Part shown: in pieces, positions 50,801-64,000 of the stretch
Layout of the letters: every line of letters begins with the position of its first letter
Numbering within the stretch: the first letter of the stretch is position 1
Source: Tomocerus qinae
Taxonomy: Eukaryota > Arthropoda > Collembola > Entomobryomorpha > Tomoceridae
Assembly: GCA_020055645.1 (NCBI GenBank)
Contig: CM034546.1
Span: 94,054,001-94,118,000, forward strand
Length of the DNA: 64,000 bases
Reading direction: 5' to 3'
Translations under genes and position numbers: made by a program
Notes under the pieces: model-generated
What the model was told of the DNA's origin: nothing
Databases searched by the model: none
What the model saw: only the letters and a program-made list of their open reading frames with translations

Positions 50801-53800
50801 ACGACACAGTACCTATGTACTACCTTCCTTCGTGGACAACAAAATCTTTCTACTCAGTTGCCAATGTGTTACTCCATTATGCAGTTATGGACGAGCTAGC
50901 TCTGCCTATACTTTTCAGAGGTCTTGCTGAAGAGTCCGATTGGATTAATTTGAACAAAAGTTCAGATTTACTTGCTCAAACTCCTTCTCCAGTTCCCAGT
51001 GGAGATTCTTCAAAAGAAACACAAGTTTCAGAAGGACATTATCTACATCCTTTCAATTTACACAAAGTATACAGTGACCCTGTTGTTAGACATGAATTTT
51101 GTTCTAGGTATTTACTGCGGGTGCTGCAGATGTAGTAGAGTTTTATTGAAATTGTGTCTATTACATTATAGTTCCAACTTTAATTTAATCACATTCTGTA
51201 TTGGTGCCTACTCATTTAAACTTGTTAAGTAATTTTATAAAGTACAGACTTGCCTCCATCTTAGTAGGTTAACTTTGTACTTTCTAATGCCTACAGTAAT
51301 TTATTAGATACCGACTAAGAGTACTTGACCTATTACTGCTGGACTTCTGGATAGAGTCAATACTAGTTGAGACAGCAGTTTGGGTATCTTAGGCAGGTAG
51401 CTATGTTATAGTTTCCTTACAAATTCTATTATTGTTTCGAATTAAGGGAGAAGAAGGGTATTACTTGATTCACTCGACGGTAAATACACAATATCCGACA
51501 AAATAATTTATCTTGAACTCAGCTTTAAGTTTTCTTCAATTGTCTCAAGTTTCTGTTGCTTTCTATTTAAATTAAGCCCTATTTAAATAGATGTTAATGT
51601 AGATTATTTAGTGCAGATCTTTAATTTGTTTGACATGGAAAACATCCTACTGTATGTAACTCATTTGAATTCCTCCATTTCCTCAAATGGAAAATAATTG
51701 AAAAAGACTACAAATCGGCTGATTAAAAATAAAGACTTGTTGTAATGTTCCCGATGTAAATTGTGAAATTCAATAATCTAACTAGCACAATCCTACTTAA
51801 CAATTAGACAGAATGTTTTCCATTCAGTATTTGTTCTGTATAAAGAACTCGTTGTTTTTTATGCATTTAAAAACTAATAATAATATTTAGACTTTTGACT
51901 TGATTGTCTGTGTAATAGCATTATATTCATGAATGAGGTCAACAAAAAGCATCATTTGCAATAAAATTTTCTGTACGAATCAATACAAATAAGGGAGAGG
52001 ATTAAGTAAGGTCTATTGTAATGTAATGTAACCCGGTACTGTACAGTGCTACTGATGTAGTGTACAATATATTATTACCTTTATTGTGATATTATTCATG
52101 TAGTTGTAGCTAAAATTTGTGAGAAGGGGTATTATAATGCTGTCTCCGTACTTTCATTATAATATATCTCGTTTCGTTACATTCATCAATACTGTCTTAT
52201 AATTAATTACTAATTCAGAAGAATTAGTTCCTTCGTCAAAAAGCTTTTGGGGCAAAACAGAACGTTTCCGCCTTAGAATTCAGGTAACGGTTATGAGAAA
52301 ACGAACAAACAATTAATATTTTATAGACATGTAAGTAACTATTAGACAAAATAATGAGATATTATTCATGTTGTATATTGTAACTTGTAATTGTGACTTC
52401 TTGTTGCTCTGTTGGTTTACGTTTAGTCAAGTCAGTGCTTATGTAATTTTTGTAGCTTTAGAGTTAGTACCTATTGGTACTGCTTAAGTTAAAACGGTAG
52501 TGTTAAAAAGACGGTGTATAGTGGATAGATGCATGAATATACATTAAAAGATTGAAATCACGATTGACATTCGAGTGCTTGTGGTGAGCTTGTGTATTTT
52601 ATTGTTGTAATTTGTGAGTGCTGTGACGTGTTTTGTTTTCATGTGTAAATGAGTGAATCAATATTTGTAACATTTTATCTTTGGTAATCTTTAATGAAGT
52701 CGTGGGACATTGCTGAGCTGATATAATAGGAATACTAAAATTAAACATCTGCTGGCTGGACCAGTTTCTCATAATAAATACAAACAATAAGTATACAAAC
52801 TTTTATATGCGAATACGAATTACTATCTGTATAATAACGTAGCGTATCCTAAAGGTAACTGTTGTGATAACTCCAGCAATAATTCTGTATTTCAGTATTT
52901 TTTGAGAAACTCGGCTGAACAAAGAAAGGGGAAATAATAAAGGATTTACCATAGCAGATTGATATTGGTATACACAAATCTACATTTTGTAAGTAATTTT
53001 GTAAGCAAGAATTGTATGCACAAACTTTATAAACATTATATGGATGGTTAATTATTATTTGTTGACTAAATAAAGGGTTATCCAAATGACTTCAATAGAA
53101 ATTATTAGTCTTATTGCATTTTATTTCGCTTCTAAGCAGGAAAAAGTAGAACAATATATATAAATGTTTCCTCCTTACAGCCTTAAACCAATTCATTTTC
53201 CTCGGTCGTCAGTAAACTTGCTCTAGGAGCTAGAAATACGCTAGGGTAATGCATTTTCCTGTACAATGGACTGTTTTCGTGCCAAATCCATGCTTTGGTT
53301 TAATTTATAGTCCCTGCAGCACAAGAATAAGGTTAAAACGACCAGAACAGACCCATCCAAAAAAATCCATAGCCAGAAGTACACATAGTGAATTTGCGTT
53401 GATATGTTTAGCGAAATGTAAATAACTGAGTTCAGGAGGAGAGTGAAACCTCCAATAAAGTTCACCCATTTCCATGTAGATCTACAAAGTATCTGCAAAA
53501 TGGAACATCTTCCATTAATTCCAGTTTACATAGACTATGCTTCATTTCCTTGAATAATAAATGAGCCGCAAGCATCAATACGTACTTTGCATATGGGTAA
53601 TATTGAAAAAGATGTCTGAACAATTCCGACGAAAGCTGCAACTACGAAATATAAAACCAGGGAATGTACATGTACATCATTCGACGATTTGTCTGCATTC
53701 TCGTCAACGTTATCCATGTGAATTAAATTCACCATGGAGTAGGCTGCCGTAATGATTCCCAATATCTGTATTCAATTCAATGTTATAAACTTTTATGAAA

Positions 53801-55142
53801 ATGCAAATTATACTAAATTTGTATCCAATATTTTTCACTTACGGCTGTAATTCCCGAGATCCATGTAAATAAATTATGTTCGGTACATTCGTTCCTAGCT
53901 TGTTGATTACACATTTTGCGGAATAATTCACATAAGTGAAAGATATTGAATTATTTAACAAGATGTTACTATAAAGGTACTACGTACTGGATTCTTTAAT
54001 TAAAGTTTTAACAGAAAGCAACATGAAATTCACTACTGCAGTTGTAACTGTTTTCGCTAAGGTTCTATTTAATCAATGACATTTATTTGTTTTGCAACTA
54101 CCTTATGTATATCTGATAAATACGCAAATGGTTCCTTGTACAATATGAATGCTTACTTAGAAATTGTCGGTTATTGTTTACCTAATTGTTGGTTTTGTTT
54201 CACAGGAATTTTGTTTATGATGGTCAGCAGGGATTGCCCAGATTTAGAAATAAGCAAAATGTTTGTTTTCTAAGTTTTACTATTTTTTAGCTAAAAGTTT
54301 AAACCAGGTCAAAATAACGACGTTTTAAACTTGATGGTAGTAGAATTAGGTAAATAAGGATTAGTAACTATACTTTGACCGCAAACACGTTTAGATCATC
54401 ATTTAGATACTATACAACATTCATGATATTATAATGTATTGTTTGTATAATATGTAGAAGTTCAAGTGAATTTGGTGGTTTGCAAACAGTTTATGTTTGT
54501 GTGCGTATAGTACGTTACCCGCTTTGAAGTTTAGCCTTCCTATCCCCAAGTTGCATAGCGATACGCATTCTGATTGGTTGATAATTTTTGAAATCCTGCA
54601 ATCTGATTGGTTATTTCTATGGCAAAAATTCTATAGGTTACCTAAATGGGGACACATTTTCAAAATTTATGAAATTGTTGCAAAACTCAACCAAGTCATA
54701 TTATGAATCATCTGAATGATCTATTTACCTACTACTTTCCCTTTCAATGTACACATTTATGAGAATGGTGAATCGAGCTATTTATATACACAATATTGTG
54801 CAATTATTTATTATTTAACTATGACTCTGGTACAAGTGAACAATCGGTACTACTTTATTCCAATTTATTACCAAATAAAGGTTATATATAATATAGGTCG
54901 GTTTGAAGATTAATATCATTCAGTACTGTGTTATAGTAGCGTAGAACAAAATATCAAGATCATTATCAAAATCATTAAGATCCATCTTTTTTCATTTCAG
55001 CTGTATTATTTAGCCTAGGAGTCCTTTTGACCTTCGACGAAAATTAAAAGTTAGTCGCCTGAGTGTCATTGAGGAGTTGTCCAAGAAAGGTTACAGTCAG
55101 CTCGCAAATACTGATAAAGCATCAGCTTCTGAGACAGTGTAA
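29706..55142 (+). CDS. STELLO/DUF288-type glycosyltransferase-like protein, 5' incomplete
   Basis: Eight exons join in frame: 29706-29882, 32279-32482, 33135-33492, 45752-45899, 46334-46478, 47857-50462, 50627-51107, 55019-55142. They give about 1,413 residues. Family hallmarks in order: KWVVVGNPD and GWKVIIIGE (residues ~12-55); the Tyr/Arg-rich block ending NLAFIWAIHRGARYVFD (to ~120); NTLFSPEVFWALPLLPD (~276-292); RGLWSQSLLGDLGG (~318-331). A second glycosyltransferase-like half follows (ALLIVVFTNQ...FPNILYCG...GYMVVTDETLMKTW). Then come an acidic Ser/Thr-rich linker and a C-terminal block, IRLFHDTVPMYYLPSW. Plant STELLOs are Golgi type II membrane proteins that assist cellulose synthase export; the role of animal relatives is unclear. 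The N-terminal anchor exon is not found. The acidic DDD-type motif expected after the HRGA block reads DAYVEEYQ, so activity is doubtful. Family call strong, gene ends weak. Confidence 0.85.
29883..32278 (+). other. intron A-B of STELLO-like gene, 2.4 kb
   Basis: AT-rich intron bounded by GTACGT and TTTTTAG. No nested gene, repeat array or extra exon was recognised on either strand. Confidence 0.7.
32279..32482 (+). CDS. STELLO-like exon B
   Basis: It joins exon A by completing a CGG codon (CG|G). It encodes RMPDCYPIQKSQFLRMSYRT... through NLAFIWAIHRGARYVFDAYVEEYQ, the DUF288 segment corresponding to the conserved 'Y-R-K-N-I-G-Y-L-x-A-I-x-x-G-A' region. In most family members this is followed by an acidic cluster. 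Here DAYVEEYQ stands in its place. The donor is GTGAGG, leaving GG to make a Gly codon with exon C. Confidence 0.85.
32483..33134 (+). other. intron B-C of STELLO-like gene, 652 bp
   Basis: The intron runs from GTGAGG to CACTTTTCAG. It remains open in one frame for about 70 codons after the donor, which is probably chance. No other feature was seen. Confidence 0.7.
33135..33492 (+). CDS. STELLO-like exon C with His/Gly-rich insert
   Basis: 119 codons after the Gly junction, starting VTIPKFEEELNRQLHTLALDESLAL and ending ICEVRPPSIEK at a GTACCT donor in phase 0. The middle is a low-complexity, probably disordered segment with a GTGSGSNSH stretch and a histidine cluster HGHGHHSHN at about 33,385-33,410. 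The end aligns in position with the family's 'D-P-D-x-D-A-I-x-R-L' motif, but the aspartates are not visible. The histidine cluster could bind metal; that is speculation. Confidence 0.8.
35285..35325. repeat. two adjacent perfect hairpins
   Basis: GCATTTT/AAAATGC (35,285-35,300, 2-bp loop) is followed at once by ATTTTTTATT/AATAAAAAAT (35,305-35,325, 1-bp loop). They could extrude as a double cruciform in the large intron. AT-rich DNA makes such palindromes fairly likely by chance. Confidence 0.4.
38719..38736. repeat. 8-bp near-palindrome in large intron
   Basis: GTATACCT and AGGTATAC separated by two bases form a compact dyad. The arms contain AGGTA, part of a short motif common throughout this window. 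No known function. Confidence 0.35.
45752..45899 (+). CDS. STELLO-like exon D
   Basis: Encodes FLEIDKGWWDMRAPALVLPG... and NTLFSPEVFWALPLLPDYSAG. The run N-T-L-F-x-x-E-x-F-W-A-L-x-L-P is a strong DUF288/STELLO signature. Acceptor ATGATTTCAG, donor GTATAT after one base of a Gly codon. This is among the exons that most clearly identify the family. Confidence 0.88.
45900..46333 (+). other. intron D-E of STELLO-like gene, 434 bp
   Basis: Bounded by GTATAT and CATTTCAAG. Nothing else was recognised inside. Confidence 0.7.
46334..46478 (+). CDS. STELLO-like exon E
   Basis: Encodes GGEGDDHPEVPQNASRIPPW and then YIRGLWSQSLLGDLGG plus a hydrophobic tail. This aligns with the family's 'R-G-Y-W-x-Q-R-L-L-W-x-I-G-G' block, although the usual Arg-Leu-Leu-Trp has become Ser-Leu-Leu-Gly. 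Donor GTAAGT in phase 2; the first base of exon F completes a Leu codon. Confidence 0.85.
46479..47856 (+). other. intron E-F of STELLO-like gene, 1.4 kb
   Basis: Contains a 94-codon cysteine-rich open frame at 47,552-47,836 (TTG start) just before the acceptor of exon F. I see no signal peptide or family match and treat it as chance. A small hairpin (AAGTGTCT/AGACACTT) lies at 47,225-47,248. Confidence 0.6.
47225..47248. repeat. 8-bp stem hairpin in intron
   Basis: AAGTGTCT and AGACACTT flank an 8-base loop. A related AAGTGTCT recurs about 40 bp downstream (near 47,285). No known role. Confidence 0.35.
47857..50462 (+). CDS. STELLO-like exon F (large exon)
   Basis: 868 codons without interruption. 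It opens with NQDYFVGGDYEPNLNPSS and a basic-to-mixed stretch containing SLIDAWIIDL, seen in family members. A disordered Gln/Glu/Ser-rich section follows. Then comes the second glycosyltransferase-like unit (about 48,750-49,150): ALLIVVFTNQHYDLIPTLEV, FPNILYCGHP, ATYECVLGAMEMNYEVKGYM and VVTDETLMKTWNIEKLD. From about 49,300 to 50,320 is an acidic Ser/Thr/Asn-rich linker. A helical segment, EQILKKEIDSLLDGLNNAY, closes the exon. Donor GTAATA, phase 1. The open frame reads on into the intron to 50,626, but this part is AT-rich noise. Confidence 0.88.
50627..51107 (+). CDS. STELLO-like exon G
   Basis: It follows a 164-bp intron. It encodes ISPREFRHIRCTLQDDG, DIRLFHDTVPMYYLPSWTTK and SVANVLLHYAVMDELALPIL, resembling the C-terminal helper block of STELLO proteins in which a membrane-facing residue run follows 'Y-V-P'. 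It ends at ...VRHEFCS with donor GTATTT in phase 2. If not spliced, the frame continues for seven codons and stops at about 51,133, giving an alternative short C-terminus. Confidence 0.82.
51108..53119 (+). other. last intron of STELLO-like gene, 5' part
   Basis: AT-rich, no exon recognised. A perfect 10-bp inverted repeat lies at 51,563-51,590. AATAAA strings (for example near 51,727) could serve a transcript that fails to splice to the last exon. The nested minus-strand gene begins beyond this stretch. Confidence 0.55.
51563..51590. repeat. 10-bp stem hairpin
   Basis: CTATTTAAAT (51,563-51,572) and ATTTAAATAG (51,581-51,590) flank an 8-bp loop. The arms are perfectly complementary. No target duplication or coding context. 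Confidence 0.4.
53120..53125 (-). terminator. poly(A) signal for nested 4-TM gene
   Basis: TTTATT on the plus strand reads AATAAA on the minus strand. It lies about 115 bp downstream of the stop codon of the nested membrane-protein gene, a normal 3'-UTR distance. Confidence 0.5.
53241..53914 (-). CDS. small four-pass membrane protein, nested antisense
   Basis: Three exons on the minus strand (53914-53843, 53765-53586, 53492-53241) join in phase 0 through introns of 77 and 93 bp. Donors are GTAAGT and GTACGT; acceptors are ATACAG and TTGCAG. The protein has 167 residues, starts MCNQQARNECTEHNLFTW and ends QENALP. Four hydrophobic spans are visible: WISGITAILGIITAAY (~18-33), LVLYFVVAAFVGIVQTSF (~57-74), VNFIGGFTLLLNSVIYISL (~94-112) and YFWLWIFLDGSVLVVLTLFL (~121-140). 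The loop after span 1 is acidic and the C-terminus is short and polar. Topology is like small tetraspan proteins (LAPTM or MARVEL type), but no signature is present. I do not recognise the family. It lies wholly in the last intron of the STELLO-like gene, on the opposite strand. Confidence 0.65.
54513..54882 (+). repeat. left arm of foldback element 1
   Basis: It begins CGTTACCCGC and ends near ...TTTATTACCAAATAAAGG. The reverse complement occurs at 55,262-55,623. It includes CTGATTGGTTGATAA and CTGATTGGTTATTTC about 40 bp apart. Confidence 0.8.
55019..55142 (+). CDS. predicted terminal exon H of STELLO-like gene
   Basis: With acceptor GCCTAG|G the phase-2 end of exon G is completed to AGG. 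Forty more codons follow (starting SPFDLRRKLK, ending SASETV) to a TAA at 55,140-55,142. The peptide is hydrophilic and coding-like. Two other acceptors lie just upstream: TTTCATTTCAG ending at 55,000, which has the stronger pyrimidine tract, and TATTTAG at 55,013. These would give only a few codons before a stop. The exon sits in the central loop of a foldback element, so it may be transposon-derived or captured. Confidence is limited because I cannot confirm that the tail is conserved in relatives. Confidence 0.5.
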
Positions 55143-55261
55143 TCTGATTGCTTCTACATATTTATAGAGATCGAATAGTTAATTAATGTTGTGTAAACAT
55201 ATTTTCTAGAATACAGTGCAATTTAACTAGTTAGTTACATAGTTAATTCTAAATGCATTTA

Positions 55262-55623
55262 CCTTCATGTGGTAATAAATTGGAATAAAGTAGTACCGAT
55301 TGTTCACTTGTACCAGAGTCATAGTTAAATAATTGCATAATATTGTGTATATAAATAGCTCGATTCACCATTCTCATAAATGTGTACATTGAAAGGGAAA
55401 GTAGTAGGTAAATAGATCATTCAGATGATTCATAATATGACTTGGTTGAGTTTTGCAACAATTCATAATTTTTGAAAATGTGTCCCCATTTAGGTAATCT
55501 ATAGAATTTTTGTCATAGAAATAACCAATCAGATTGCAGGATTTCAAAAATTATCAACCAATCAGAATGCGTATCGCTATGCAACTTGGGGATAGGAAGG
55601 CTAAACTTCAAAGCGGGTAACAG
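55262..55623 (-). repeat. right arm of foldback element 1
   Basis: Reverse complement of the left arm, ending ...AAGCGGGTAACAG before TA at 55,624. It contains the poly(A) hexamers that follow the predicted terminal exon. Confidence 0.8.
55274..55289 (+). terminator. tandem AATAAA poly(A) signals in element arm
   Basis: Two AATAAA hexamers (55,274-55,279 and 55,284-55,289) lie about 135 bp after the TAA of the predicted last STELLO-like exon. They are inside the right arm of foldback element 1, so the element would provide the 3' end of the transcript. Confidence 0.45.
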
Positions 55624-55659
55624 TATAGTACTAAACACAGTACAGGGACTGGATGAGTA

Positions 55660-56673
55660 CTGATCCTGTCACTCCATGGGGACTATTTTCAAATCGAGGG
55701 GGACATGAAAATCGCTTCTCATTGGTGGATGAAATTTTTTATTGACCAATCAGAAGGCAGCATTTCATTTCAAAATTTTATATGATTTTCAAAAAGCATT
55801 CCCAAGGGAAATATTTATTGTAACATTTGACTTCTGAGATTTATCTTAATTACTTGCTGTAAGGAGTAACTGTTGACTCAACTATTATTATGTTGACACG
55901 CAAAATAGACAGTAGGCACACTACATAGGGTTTAGGGTAGATTTTGTTACTATAAATCATCAATACTGCAAGTCACTGCATAATGATTAGTCTCCCCAAG
56001 GAGCTTGGACGGTTAATAAGGAGAGCCAAGTAGAGAATTGCCCGTAAGGGATTTTGAAGATCTATAAGGGACATTTTATCCCTAATTTTGTGTGAATATC
56101 TGGTTGCTATGCTGTTGGAAAAGGTATTAAATTATTAGAGGATAGCAAGTGAGACATCAATGTTTATAGCAGCTTGATAAAGACAGGGGTAGGGGACGTT
56201 TTCCAAAAAACGTCCCTTATAGATCTTCAAATTCGCTTATGGTAAAATTCCCTACTCGGCTCTCATGATAAAGCGCTACTATACTATGGCAACGTCCATG
56301 CTCCTTGAGTCTCTCTAAAATAATACAGATACAAGCCAATGGATTATCTTACAATTATGTATGCTAAAATACTCTGGTATGCCTTCTAGCTTAGTCTACT
56401 AGTCTTGTTACATCCGTAGAGTTAAGTACGCAATGTGGTAAGTATATAGCTTAGAATGGTGATAATAAAATTACATGCTAAAGTGTATAATGTCTCAGAA
56501 GTCAAATGTTGCAATAAATATTTCCCTTGGGAATGCTTTTTGAAAATCATATAAAATTTTGAAATGAAAATGCTGCGTTCTGATTGGTCAATAAAAAATT
56601 TCATCCACCAATGAGAAGCGATTTTCATGCCCCCCTCGATTTGAAAATAGTCCCCATGGAGTGACAGGATCAG
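55660..56673. mobile_element. foldback/MITE-like element 2, 1.0 kb, TA-flanked
   Basis: Termini CTGATCCTGTCACTCCATGG (from 55,660) and its reverse complement (ending 56,673) are flanked by TA at 55,658-55,659 and 56,674-56,675. Outer arms are 55,660-55,839 and 56,493-56,673, reading close to identical. A second, more diverged inverted pair lies inside (about 55,976-56,090 and 56,200-56,340). There is no open frame for a transposase. Its sequence is unrelated to element 1 except for the shared TCTGATTGGT-type motif. It starts 36 bp after element 1 and ends 278 bp before the ATG of the UBE2O-like gene. Confidence 0.8.
55976..56340. repeat. inner diverged inverted repeat of element 2
   Basis: Blocks GGAG..TTGGACG, GAGAGCCAAGTAGAGAATT and TTGAAGATCTATAAGGGACAT (left, to ~56,075) recur inverted and diverged on the right (56,209-56,330). 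At 56,194-56,214 the sequence GGACGTTTTCC...AAAACGTCC forms its own small hairpin. It may be an older element into which, or around which, the outer arms were assembled. Confidence 0.6.
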
Positions 56674-56951
56674 TAATGGACATGACTTGGATTTTCATGA
56701 GCCGGCCGGAACAAGGAATTGATTCGGATATGGATTAATGCTTGGAATATTGCTTCCCTGTAAATTAGGAGGTTTCCATCACGATTACTTCTATGAAAAT
56801 AACAAAAAACACGAAAGAGACTAATCAAGACTTCCTGTATTCATGAAATTGCTTTTTGAATTTAGGTCATTTTTCATCTTCAATTTTTCGTTTTCATAAG
56901 AGCCATCCGATTTTGTTCATCAGTGAAGTTCGGTACGAAGAGGACTAAGAT

Positions 56952-59178
56952 ATGTCAACGTACACTAGAAGATTAGCGGTTGACGATCTGATTCTGCACA
57001 TTCTTCGAGATGGAACTTTCGAAGTTGGGCGCATTCCAGTTCAGAACACTCTTGGAGCACATCGTATGAAAACCAAATGTCATGACCGCCACGACGAAGA
57101 CCTCTCCTCTGACCCAATGTACAATAACATCTTGGTGAAATTGTTTCCTAACGATGGTACTCCTAAAGATGTCTTACCTAAGGATGTAATTCACTATTTT
57201 TCAGATTTCCAATCATTTCCAGTTAAGAATTTTACAGGAAATGCAATTACAATTTTTATTTGTCTGTTTAATGTTTCGCCCCAGCTCGTTATTCTTGACC
57301 GGAACTTTAAGATTGGACAATTAGTGAAGCAGCAGGACCATAAGGGTCAGGTTGGAAAAGTTGGTTACATTAGCTCATTTAAACAAATAGCTACTGCACG
57401 AATTTATGAGCCGGACGAAACTAAGCGAAAGAATCCTGCCAACGAATTGTACATCTATAACAAACCTGCCAGATTCTATCACGATCCTTCGCGGGTATTA
57501 ATTGCATTCATCAGTACTCTACGTAATGGTTTGAATTTTCATGAGATGGTAATAGTAATAATTTGCTTTTGCTATTAAAGTCCTCTTTAGAAGTTGAGGA
57601 TGTAATAAATGTGGACGGATGGCTTGGAATTATCAAAGGTATAAAACGAGAAGTGGAATTAACTGTTGACTTCGGAAGTAGTATTCTACAATCTGCAGAG
57701 ATCGAACAAAGTGACTTGTATGACACTATGTTGGCTTATGGGATAACAGAAATAATTCCAAAGGAAACTTGCCATTTTGAGATGAATGGCATTAATAGTA
57801 TTTTCCGTGGACGCACTTTCGTAATACCTTACAAACACCTACTAGATAATGCATTTCAGCGTCCATCTTTCCGATGGATCATCGGTACTTCAACTCCATA
57901 CAAACCACATGATACTTCGCTGGCTGTACGAGTGATTATCAGGGGAGTATCCGTAAGATATTTTTGTACTCAATAAAGTTTAGATATTTTATTGAGTTTT
58001 AAAAATGCACACGCCTAGCATTTTACTGATTATATTAATATCACATGCAAATTTGCCATTATCTAACTACTGTATACAGCTCAGTCAATTGCAAGTGGAA
58101 TGGAAAGCGCATGAAGAAATCTCTAGCCCGAAACCTGATGATTCAACTCCTCTAAACTGCAAGGGTAGATTTTCTTTGAACATTGTAACTCATCCTAAGC
58201 CTTTGAAGATTGGTGATATACGAATTTGTAATATGACTGAAGAAGATTGGAAAATTGTGTTGAATAAAGTTGCTTGGAAGAGCTGTGTAGCGAAAGATTA
58301 CTTCCTGCATAAAAGAAGGGGCAAAAGTCCCAGATTAGATGAAAATACGAAGGTTACTACATGTTTTTGTATTTAGAGGAATCTGAGAAACGAAATATCA
58401 ACGTTTACAATATTGGTTTTGATTTTTGACAAACAGGAAATTCTACCGTCGGTTTTGCCGGCAAAAGTGGCTGTAGAGATCATAACAACTGCCACAAAAG
58501 TGGATATTATCAATATGGTAGGTTGGTTTACATTATCAAAATAGTAACATTTATTTAGTGGCTACTACAGCTTTATATTCTGTTTAGGATGGAACCGTTG
58601 ATCTGGATGTTGACTCAAGGGATTTGGATCCGGTCCGATATCAGAATGAATTTCCTGGATCAATAGTGATTACGAGTGATGAGCCTCACCGAAGTTTTAA
58701 CGCTGTCGGAAGTGCTATGACACGTTCGTTGGACTATTCTGTCGTACAGAGTTCCCAAAGAATTGTTAGCAACCAAGAGGAGAGTAAGATTTATTCCGAA
58801 CAACCCAACTTTTGTATATAAAAAGCTTTATTTAGTGATCATAGACTATTCATTTTAGAGTTAAAGTGGACGGTTCAGGATTATAGATTGAACATTGGAA
58901 CTGTAGTACCTGTCCCAATTGGCGAACCTCGTGTTATCAGCGAGTATAATGGACCTACACTGAGAATGTGTTGGCTATGGCGTAAAAATAAACCTCAGGT
59001 TGTAACCAAAATGAAAAATTCTGAAGCTGACTTTTCATATGGATGCGTCATTGGGATGTTTCCTGATGGTCGTGTTAGAATTCGAAATGAAAATGGAATA
59101 ATAATGGAAGTGTGGCCTACAGATTTGATTCCACTGGATCATCCTAAAAATACAGACTCAAAAGAGCGAATATATTGA
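56952..59178 (+). CDS. UBE2O-like protein without E2 domain
   Basis: Seven exons: 56952-57221, 57285-57522, 57591-57952, 58080-58352, 58437-58517, 58588-58783, 58859-59178. They give about 579 residues. The chain follows the N-terminal SH3-like conserved regions of the ubiquitin E2/E3 hybrid UBE2O: LDRNFKIGQLVKQ; VINVDGWLGIIKGI; RGRTFVIPYKHLL; QLQVEWKAHEE; KPLKIGDIRIC; LPAKVAVEIITTATKVDI; DGTVDLDVDSRDLDPV; NEFPGSIVI; and YGCVIGMFPDGRVRIRNENG. UBE2O recognises orphan and misfolded clients through these regions. No coiled coil and no UBC domain with catalytic Cys follows: the frame ends at TGA and the next 850 bp is non-coding. A stand-alone substrate-binding relative, a truncated gene or a split gene are all possible. 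Introns are 63-127 bp. An alternative 32-bp third-exon junction (57,549-57,580) is judged unlikely. Confidence 0.72.
57222..57284 (+). other. 63-bp intron, multiple of three, no stop
   Basis: GTTAAG...CCCCAG divides the first two exons of the UBE2O-like gene. Read through, it adds 21 residues (VKNFTGNAITIFICLFNVSP plus Q) without a stop. Alignment with UBE2O (…LEDRS-x-x-PGD…) fits better when it is removed. Its size agrees with the neighbouring 68-84 bp introns. Confidence 0.55.
57968..57997. repeat. 10-bp stem hairpin in UBE2O-like intron
   Basis: ACTCAATAAA (57,968-57,977) and TTTATTGAGT (57,988-57,997) lie just after the donor at 57,953 in a 127-bp intron. The arms also place AATAAA on both strands. 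It could affect splicing or premature polyadenylation; that is inference. Confidence 0.45.
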
Positions 59179-60030: not shown

Positions 60031-63000
60031 TCACACGACAACGCCAATATCCCCAAGAATGTTTGATAGTCTGTTCAGGCTTTCGTCCAACATTTCAGGC
60101 TTTAATCCAGGTTTACTTCTGAACAAAAGTTTCAAGGCAGTGACATATTCGAGCTCTTTGAATTGTGGACCTTTCTCCAGAATTGCATTCACCAACTCCT
60201 GCGAAGAAAAAAACTGTGTCAAACAATCTGTCCTACAGAATATTAAAACTTCACAAGCATGTAGTTGCAGTGAATGTTGACAACGAAACTAGAGAATTAT
60301 CTACCTCTGGTGACAATAGAAACAATTCATAGTATTGTCTCGCATGGTCCATAGCATGCTCCGGTTGGTTTGTGATATTGCATAAAGTTTGCTGTATAGC
60401 AAATATATCACGGCACAATTTCTTCACTCCATTATCATTTATTCTCTGAATGTCTTGAGCTGCGCCAATCAATACTGTGGAAATAAGTTGACCAACACCT
60501 TGGAAAATGTACTGAAAAGCAAAAAAATCCATTAGAGTCGCAACAGACATAATATTATAAAATTATTACACAGTGACAGGACAGGAGTTAGAGTAGAAGA
60601 ACAAAGTTTAAGAAACTTACTTTTGTTTTAATTGGCTGCAACGCAGAATTTAGAACATTTTCAATATCAGCTAAATCCTTGTTCAGTTGTACAACTTCTG
60701 GGTCGGGAACTTGATTATCGACTCCAGGGGCAAACTCGCCTTTTTTGGCCATTGGAAGCAGATAGTAAAAACAGTGTACTCTAATCTGTAAAATAAAACG
60801 TTTCTTTGAAATTCTGTCGTGTTTTTAGTTGAAAATTGATAAAATCAAAATTTCATTTTCATTAACCTCTAAATGCAACACCAGAAGACAAATGTCAGCA
60901 AGATCCTGAAAAGTTGATCCTATGGAATGTAGTTTAGCGATTGAATCCTTCATTTCCTTTTCAGTATCTTGAATCAATTCAAACGAACTAGCCACACCAC
61001 TAACAATATCCGCAAACCATTCCTATTGAAGAAAATAGGCAAATCAGTGCCCATACTCAAGGGTACATAAAATTTGGATCATTTAAAGTTGCAAATTTTT
61101 TAGGCTCACCAAACTTTCTTGGAGATGTGAAAGCTGCTCAAGTTGCCTAACATCTGATAGGATTTCGTGCTGCAATACAATTTTTCCATTAAAGATGCCA
61201 CTAAGAAGATCCGACTCCCGAATATTTTGAGCGCGTAAGTCCTCTGGACTTTCATCGATAACTTCTGGTTGTTTTTTGTCTTTGGCTTTCTGTAACTTTG
61301 CCCAGTTTGGCAAAGATTTCAGTAATCTTTCAATATCCTCGTCTTTAACCCAAGTGGCAGATATCACACCCTTATCTTCGGCATCTGGTTGTACCACACC
61401 ATTATAGGCATCTTGACACGTTTCTCGATATTGTGTCAGAAGTGCATCTAGAATGTGTATGAGCTGATCGGAGTGGGAAGGAAGATCTTTTGACAAGCTT
61501 ATAACCTCCTGGATACTGCGGCCAATACTAACCACACTCTATAAAAATTCAATGAAGTCACTTTTAAAATATTCTACTGCAATTTAGTTGGTACTGATAA
61601 TGCCCAACTGCAAATGAATAGCACAATCCACAATACCTGAAGCAAAGGTCTTTGACATTTCAAAGACTTGGCTACTTCAATAGAAATCACGTCCCTCCAG
61701 CAATCTGGATTTCTTTTAGCTATATCTACAGCGTCTTGAACTTCTTTATAAATCTGCTGCACGAACACACGGTTTACGTTGTTGCCCATAAATTTTCTTA
61801 ATTCACATTTTTTCCTGAAGCACGTACAAAAATTAAATTGAAGAATGTCTATATATATTGTTCTTCAAAGTTTTGTAAACTTCTGGATTGAAATAGTTCA
61901 AATGTAAAAATAATATGCAGTAAAATGAATTACAAAATGCTTACCCATTCAAAGACTGCTCTATTTCTAAAACAAAATCTTGTACAGATCCATAAATAAC
62001 AATTATGTTTCTAGAATTCGGTTTGCATACTAGAAATCTGTGTCTGTCCACAATGCTTCGGTCTACACCATCCTATAATTTAAATCCAATTTAGCAAAAA
62101 CATCGAATATGGTCATGTAGGAAGTAAGAATATAAATTAGTTTGATTAATACCTGGTCAGGAACGTAATCGTTGATATTTAAGCCATGCATTGAGTATTC
62201 GAATTTAAAAAGTGGAATCTTCTTTTGCCTTGATTAAGAAAAATGAAAACACAAATTTTGAAAGAGCTATAATTAATAAGTAACCACTAAGTAAACAATC
62301 AAGCTGAGATTATGACACGTTTTCTACCTAGGTTGTCTTCTTTTAACAAAGTAGCTGTTGATATCTGCATTTAAAGTATTTCTATTCGCATTACCAATGC
62401 TAGAAGAATGATTTGTCTTTGAATCGCTTAGATCAAAATATATTTTTAGGGTTGATTGCAACTAAAATATAAAATAGACAACTTTTAGAGCATTTCTCAT
62501 AAGATTAGGTTAACGATAATTTACGTTACAATATTATGGGTCACTTACTACTAGCTGGATTTTTGTCCACACAAATTCTTCACTGTATAGCTTCACTTCT
62601 ATGCAACTAAAGTCAGCAGCTGCCTTCTTCATTTGATTTATTAACTGAATATGTGAGCGAACAATCCATCGAAATTGGGTAAATGTTGTCTATAAAAACG
62701 AATTCCATACATGAATTACAATAACACGAATAAACACAATCTTTTTTGGATAACAACGTGTAATAGCAATATTATTGCCGAACGTTGTTCTAGACGTTCT
62801 AAGATAACCTGGGGAAAATAAGAATTAGTATAGCACATACTTGTATCGGTAACTTTAAATAGGTATTTAAATACATTGAATATTATGTCATAATCCTATC
62901 ATTTCAGATGGTCAGGTAAGCCATATTATTTTACAACCATTTATTAACCCTAACAATTCAAGTTTGTGCAATACCAATAAAAACACAGCCGATTACCTGG

Positions 63001-64000
63001 AGTAGTTCCTGCAAAAGTGATGCATCTGTCTCGTTAATTCCATTGGTGTCTCCATATTCAATTATTTGTTGTGAAGTGCTATTTACTACGGCAAGTAATT
63101 TTGCTTCCATTTGATATCTTATATCGTGCGAAAATTTTGGTAATTCATTTAGAAGCCCAATACATCTAACGATTGTTGGTATTATTGAATCTGACTCTAG
63201 AGTTTCATTATTGTGCATGTTAGATCTGCCATATCCATTTGTGCTACTGAATTTTCACAAATACAAAATGTTATGTATTTAACATGTTATTTAGCAATTA
63301 AAAACTTATTAATATCCACAAAAGACAGAAAATTAAGTCATACTTGGTAACTGAAGGCGATACATCCAGAAAAATTTTTCTTGCTTTGATTTGATTGCTT
63401 CTGTTTCTCCCCGAGCTTCTACGATCAGAACTTGATCTCTGAAAATGGGAAAATACGCCCGATCCTTGTCGTTTTTCTAAGTCAGTCAAAGTTCCTTTTT
63501 GGTATATTTCGTTGTACAATTCTTCTTTCAATGTTTCGTACATTTTCTACAATGAAAAGTAAACACAAAATTAGTCCAACGACAAACCACTAATGACTTA
63601 CATTATAATGTAATAATTATTATAATTCCCTCGTGTCTATTCAAAATTAATTCTTACATGTTTCTTAGACTTCAGATCTTGCTGTACATCTTTTAATCCT
63701 TCAATTTGATCCAAACTATCGTTCCAGTTATTTAAACAATTCATTAAAATCTCCACAGCTTGTAGATATTGTTTTCGATTAAGAAGCTTGTTGAACTGAT
63801 CACTACCAGAACGCAATCGATCGCTAAAGGGAAATTAGAAAATGTGTATGAAAAAATTTGACCTAAAAATTGCAGTAATTTACTTAAGATATAGACTTAT
63901 AGCTAAGACGTATTTCTTACATTTGGTCAAGAATCTCTAAAGCATGTTTATGTTCAATTCCTTCAAGCCATAGTCGTTCCAATTCTTCTCTTCTGCAATG
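60031..64000 (-). CDS. EXOC4: exocyst complex component 4 (SEC8), 5' end outside window
   Basis: Fourteen exons on the minus strand: 64000-63921 (partial), 63823-63658, 63546-63344, 63246-62997, 62689-62549, 62461-62328, 62228-62153, 62072-61945, 61814-61637, 61538-61110, 61022-60867, 60785-60621, 60511-60305, 60198-60031. All join in frame with GT-AG introns of 80-307 bp, giving about 826 residues. Matches to animal SEC8 run end to end: REELERLWLEGIEHKHALEI near the start, LFKFEYSMHGL, FLVCKPNSRNIIVIYGS, SLKCQRPLLQ, VISATWVKDEDIERLLKSLP, LADICLLVLHLE, YIFQGVGQLISTVLIGAAQD and ELEYVTALKLLFRSKPG. SEC8 is a rod-shaped helical subunit of the exocyst, which tethers secretory vesicles to the plasma membrane. 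About 105 N-terminal residues lie beyond 64,000. It is nearly full length with no break seen. Confidence 0.96.
61110..61538 (-). CDS. EXOC4: EXOC4 longest exon
   Basis: 143 codons in phase 0 (SVVSIGRSIQEVI to LSHLQESL). It holds the best conserved stretch, DAYNGVVQ followed by VISATWVKDEDIERLLKSLPNW, which nearly matches human SEC8. The exon lies between acceptor TTTTTATAG and donor GTGAGC, and encodes part of the C-terminal helical bundle region. Confidence 0.95.
63921..64000 (-). CDS. EXOC4: EXOC4 exon cut by the window edge
   Basis: Reads HCRREELERLWLEGIEHKHA and LEILDQ, matching SEC8 at about human residue 105 onward. Donor GTAAGA at 63,920, phase 2. The Sec8 N-terminal coiled-coil region continues past the right edge. 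Confidence 0.93.

Follow-up and report, generated by a model that had tools for sequence, protein, structure and literature searches.

Transposons that carry pieces of host genes are seldom multicopy in animals. For its 100 reference genomes, a survey of animals gives four multicopy cases of Pack-TIRs, that is, of elements with a gene piece between their terminal inverted repeats (TIRs), and the pictured example lies at three places (Tan et al. 2021; PMC8277862). The subject of this report is the element at 54513–55623 (+ strand) of a 64,000-nucleotide stretch of the Tomocerus qinae genome (the window, meaning the whole stretch of DNA analyzed). The element is a complete copy of a non-autonomous transposon with long TIRs, as read from its ends and from the recurrence of the whole unit elsewhere in the genome. 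From sequence comparison, we consider it likely that this is a young copy of a multicopy, gene-capturing TIR transposon that was mobilized in trans and landed downstream of a STELLO-like gene.

Like the multicopy animal Pack-TIRs, as that paper describes them, the family comprises non-autonomous TIR elements with a putative gene piece between the TIRs, and the same chimera is repeated with independent target duplications (PMC8277862). It differs from them in its numbers (16 copies of full length and 37 loci with the exon among those compared), its sub-families, its inverted rearrangements, and the two-exon extent of the carried piece. Of the features by which Pack-TIRs are recognized, TIRs, a target-site duplication, and independent insertions at several places were all found; the survey required a parental gene, whereas the family here is assigned provisionally, from exon–intron–exon anatomy. 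Ssk-FB4, a foldback Pack element of Drosophila, shares the long inverted arms, the frequent rearrangement of these arms, and the captured coding exons, but is described in the same paper as having target duplications of 9–10 bp and nearly the whole Ssk gene, instead of the TA and the 3′ end only that are seen here (PMC8277862).

Miniature inverted-repeat transposable elements (MITEs) of the Tc1/mariner type resemble the family in their TA target duplication, which was found here, in being non-autonomous, and in their near-identical copies, but their arms are in general shorter than 100 bp, compared with about 365 bp here (PMC8277862). A further difference is that no transposase is linked to the present family. 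Long TIRs are also found in Tc3 and Minos, and many Tc1 elements have ends of the CAGT type; the end CTGTTACCC of the present family is not of that type. Plant Pack-MULEs (gene-carrying Mutator-like elements) also capture gene fragments between TIRs and amplify them, but the target duplications of MULEs are 8–11 bp long and that of the present family is TA. A literature search turned up no published description of this transposon family, which is not to say that none is in print.

Copies, arms, and termini

The whole 1,111-bp element was used as a query against its own genome (334 Mb in 115 contigs). As 40 of the 567 candidates were scored and 154 matches are listed, the genome copy counts are lower bounds. 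Full-length matches of about 100% identity were found at at least seven places, including the window's own, and at least nine more are nearly complete at 97%. The 40 loci compared comprise eight from the whole-element search (again including the window's own) and 32 others, and 16 of them are full-length. Compared base by base, three of these 16 (L001, which is the window copy, L002, and L003) show no difference within the stretch bounded by the terminal GTTACCCGC and GCGGGTAAC, four (L004–L007) have one substitution each, and the remaining nine have 8–15 substitutions and small indels.

The intact ends TA|CTGTTACCC...GGGTAACAG|TA are present in 14 of the 16 full-length copies, while the flanking DNA differs from copy to copy. 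The exceptions are L035, which is shortened at both ends, and the window copy, whose left end CGTTACCC is the CTGTTACCC of the other copies minus one T and whose right end is GGGTAACAG. In the window, the target-site duplication is the TA at 54511–54512 on the left and at 55624–55625 on the right. Varied flanks, a TA on both sides, and near-identical copies together indicate a 2-bp TA target duplication and recent movement; the unit at 54513–55623 is thus a member of a recently mobile transposon family, and the exon moves with it. This dispersal of the entire unit over many loci answers the search for further copies proposed by an earlier sequence-only reading of this DNA. That reading also offered two separate insertions in opposite orientation that bracket a STELLO exon, an option that is rejected here because the complete unit was found at 16 loci. 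A 9-bp target duplication, suggested by the occurrence of GTATAGTAC to the left and right of the window copy, was considered and rejected, since other copies have only TA in common; placement in a foldback or MULE-type class by a long target duplication failed on the same comparison, only TA being common to both flanks across copies.

The two inverted arms of about 365 bp, flanked by TA, that the sequence-only reading described are present at 54514–54882 (left, + strand) and 55261–55621 (right, − strand). A gapped alignment of the arms has 96.2% identity over 369 columns, and they form three ungapped blocks that are 97–99% complementary. The AATAAA signals ascribed to the right arm also proved to be there, with + strand positions 55274 and 55284. 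Between the arms lies a spacer of 378 bp, which contains the predicted exon.

A second foldback (55658–56675) starts 34 bases past the first, with arms at 55658–55839 and 56493–56675 that are 98% identical over 183 columns. Apart from the arms of the element itself, the only inverted pairs of at least 60 nt (seed 14) in the window are those of this second foldback. Similar inverted repeats also occur inside or beside other copies of the element, for example at L013, L016, L025, and L027. Two loci, L025 (1327–1734) and L028 (1136–1551), match the element only in its left part, up to a point just past CAG-TA-CTG (54928–54931); the right arm was absent from the fetched flank of both. Their shared endpoint may represent a shorter element or a truncation.

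The carried exon and its longer relatives

At least part of the exon is present in 37 of the 40 loci, the exceptions being L025, L026, and L028. In the window, the carried last coding exon occupies 55001–55142 (+ strand), with its stop at 55140–55142, and is preceded by a strong 3′ splice site at 54986–55000 (+ strand). This site consists of a polypyrimidine tract, with 13 of 15 positions being pyrimidines, and a CAG at 54998–55000, so that the acceptor is 55000|55001. The exon was delimited by comparison among the 37 loci that contain it. Next to position 55032 the exon is frame-shifted by four missing bases, TGGA. Among the 37 loci with the exon, TGGA is absent from 11, including the window copy, and present in 19; L037 lacks one of the four bases, and in six the site is not covered. 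Because the 19 loci with TGGA include the more divergent sub-families, we infer that TGGA is ancestral and that its absence is a deletion.

With TGGA in place, the frame is open from the strong acceptor via VLFSLGVLLTWIRRKLKVSRLSVIEELSKKGYSQLANTDEASASETV to the stop, and in 16 of the 19 TGGA loci the aligned part is free of frame-shifting indels. The frame or the acceptor is broken by 1-nt insertions in L011 and L015 and by a rearrangement at the acceptor in L040. Other changes among the TGGA loci are the loss of the stop in L013, 6-nt insertions in L012 and L021, and the lack of the acceptor or tract in L015 and L020. The original frame terminates after VLLTFDEN in the window copy. The open stretch at 55019–55142 (+ strand), which the sequence-only reading took for a STELLO exon, opens at a weaker TAG 18 nt further in, out of the original frame, and joins the original frame only because of the 4-nt deletion. 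Comparison of the loci and a scan of acceptor sites indicate that this stretch is best explained as a by-product of the deletion within the carried exon.

Several loci contain more of the carried piece than the window copy does. Extra sequence is found in L010–L013 and L027 at the point corresponding to the window junction 54954 → 54969. In L014, L015, and L016, an upstream exon (...CPPEENKDSIFWTFLKSDLVEHYFYP) ends at GTAAGT and is followed by an intron and then by the last exon; the upstream exon ends in phase 1 and the last exon starts in phase 1. The predicted splice product of these three loci would read ...LVEHYFYPTVLFSLGVLLTWIRRK.... Four bases of the donor site are missing from L010 and L027.

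Inverted forms of the carried piece also occur. L014 (1223–2748) and L015 (1210–2752) are each built from a pair of right halves, inverted relative to each other, of about 660 bp each and 95% identical to the window element, with the exon on both arms, which indicates that the foldback arms were extended over the carried piece. In L016 (2160–2871), and also in L017, the carried exon is itself interrupted by another inverted insertion, located between the equivalents of 55100 and 55104. A frame reading ENIRDHA.WEPIVTDEVDNFSIYS... is present in this insertion in both orientations and had no match in Pfam.

Origin of the carried piece

The proposed sequence of events would begin with the capture, by an ancestor of the family, of the 3′-terminal part of a host gene; this part would have included at least the last coding exon through its stop, the intron before it, and the penultimate exon. 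The family would then have spread by cut-and-paste, using transposase from an outside source. In the type to which the window copy belongs the penultimate exon would have been lost, and in its sub-family four coding bases as well. The window copy itself would have inserted downstream of the STELLO-like gene, whose own end would precede the element. This account builds on the copies, their termini and TA flanks, the exon–intron–exon structure with matching phase, and the 4-nt difference, all read directly from the genome. From these we infer a host origin for the fragment, a transposase acting in trans, and no splicing from STELLO.

Several observations weigh against capture from a host gene. 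The two-exon peptide gave nothing convincing in Pfam, NCBIfam, or the PDB (lowest E values 0.17 in Pfam and 1 in the PDB), and a peptide without a database match could equally come from a gene of the transposon's own. No transposase was found: the 1.1-kb copies leave 378 bp between their arms, and the scan of the longer loci covered two open reading frames (ORFs), from L016 and L009, neither with a Pfam match. The 19-residue mean hydropathy reaches a maximum of 1.25, at the exon–exon joint. In addition, the changes between group A and groups B, B2, C, D, and D2 are predominantly synonymous, which would fit constraint or re-capture.

These points bear on the main competing explanation, in which the transposon itself would be the source of both exons: they would represent the 3′ end of a gene of its autonomous partner, the copies being internal-deletion derivatives. 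We regard this explanation as unlikely. It would account for the absence, so far, of any known copy of the exon free of the arms, for the presence of the exon in several sub-families, some of which differ by mostly synonymous changes, and for the lack of a match to known protein families. It is disfavored by the absence of a transposase-like ORF in the two ORFs scanned from the longer copies and by the neutral appearance of most other sub-family pairs. Moreover, we know of no transposases with such a hydrophobic end and polar tail.

The substitutions were counted between sub-family consensuses from which insertions relative to group A had been dropped, so that the 1-nt insertion of L015 is hidden; the expected synonymous share in these comparisons is 0.26–0.32. 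For group A, the synonymous to non-synonymous counts were 6:1 (A–B), 7:4 (A–B2), 4:1 (A–C), 4:2 (A–D), and 6:3 (A–D2). The pairs in which synonymous changes do not predominate were A–C2 (4:6), A–E (4:5), B–C (2:2), B–B2 (1:5), C–D (0:3), and C–C2 (0:5). Divergence in the coding part was lower than in the 3′ flank for some pairs (0.049 versus 0.119 for A–B) and not for others (0.069 versus 0.051 for A–C2); the flank differences of 54–56% obtained for group B2 are an alignment artifact of a nested insertion and were excluded. We take the sub-family substitutions to reflect decay for the most part; a weak hint remains that the differences of group A may have arisen under constraint, for example through re-capture. 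Clear selection on the exon was considered and rejected, the counts being mixed.

The encoded C terminus is hydrophobic, then basic, and ends in a polar tail, and is possibly a membrane anchor; the hydropathy maximum is below 1.6, the customary value for a membrane span, so that an anchor can be put forward only as a possibility. The same low maximum, together with the shortness of the frame, its lack of database matches, and the mostly neutral-looking changes, could be taken to mean that the center of the element is non-coding. The family would then be an anonymous MITE of foldback form, and its frame, splice-like sites, and phase match would be due to chance. This we hold to be extremely improbable in view of the GTAAGT donor, the strong acceptor, and the phase match in L014, L015, and L016, as well as the freedom from frame-shifting indels in the aligned part of 16 of the 19 undeleted loci.

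If capture from a host gene is the correct explanation, the family would represent a known kind of element in unusually amplified form. Young copies, longer two-exon relatives, and inverted forms would then make it possible to trace in which order capture, deletion, and duplication of the arms took place. A bolder reading, which is quite doubtful, is that of a mobile terminal exon, that is, a TA-type foldback family supplied with a strong 3′ splice site, a coding tail (with a possible membrane anchor and a KKGYSQL-type ending), and AATAAA. If this were so, the element could be a natural gene trap, giving new ends to genes at its landing sites, and the family, with at least part of the exon in 37 of the 40 loci, would rank with the most amplified Pack-TIRs of animals.

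The end of the STELLO-like gene and neighboring DNA

The gene upstream of the element matches Pfam PF03385 in two stretches (E 7.9e-7, 28.7 bits, cut-off 27.8). An unspliced reading of its last exon leads to a probable true stop at 51133–51135 (+ strand; ...EFCSRYLLRVLQM*), and an AATAAA at 51728–51733 (+ strand), 2.8 kb before the element, is its probable poly(A) signal. The gene thus appears to have its own 3′ end, and probably ends unspliced at 51135, upstream of the element. Other observations speak against this ending: only nine residues follow 51106 in the unspliced reading, too few to serve as proof, the last exon alone had no match in Pfam, and among 24 acceptor sites scanned between 51.3 and 56.8 kb, the one at 55019 gave the longest in-frame tail (41 residues).

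That tail, the GT donor at 51107, and the AATAAA of the right arm are what would favor exonization after insertion, by which the element would supply the last exon of STELLO here through splicing from 51106 to 55019. We judge this very unlikely, and splicing from STELLO into the element improbable in general. Joining the donor at 51106 to the strong acceptor 55000|55001 yields SCII*, and an in-frame joint requires both the weaker TAG acceptor before 55019 (10 of 15 pyrimidines) and the 4-nt deletion. The runner-up in the scan, an unrelated site, gives a nearly equal tail of 38 residues, the gene's own stop and AATAAA come earlier, and identical copies of the element lie at other places.

The open stretch at 55019–55142 that the sequence-only reading pointed out does exist, as does the TAG before it, but its assignment to STELLO as an exon is not supported. 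Nor is the suggestion of that reading that the element created the C-terminal tail and 3′ end of STELLO, given the stop at 51133–51135, the AATAAA at 51728, and the dispersal of the exon over many loci. Exon capture, one of the three options it offered, is supported, but not for an exon of STELLO, TGGA being retained in 19 of the 37 exon-bearing loci. For annotation, the locus is a warning that a frame-shifted, transposon-borne exon can pass for the natural end of a neighboring gene.

A scan of the window against Rfam gave no match at the gathering score. Downstream of the element, coding stretches at 56949–59178 (+ strand) are UBE2O-like (Pfam SH3-C_UBE2O, E 0.00033, 20.9 bits, cut-off 21). 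Further coding stretches lie on the minus strand at 60031–63834; one of them weakly resembles RINT1_TIP1 (E 0.0078) and Sec15_C (E 0.021), both below their cut-offs, and the stretches might belong to a gene for an exocyst subunit.

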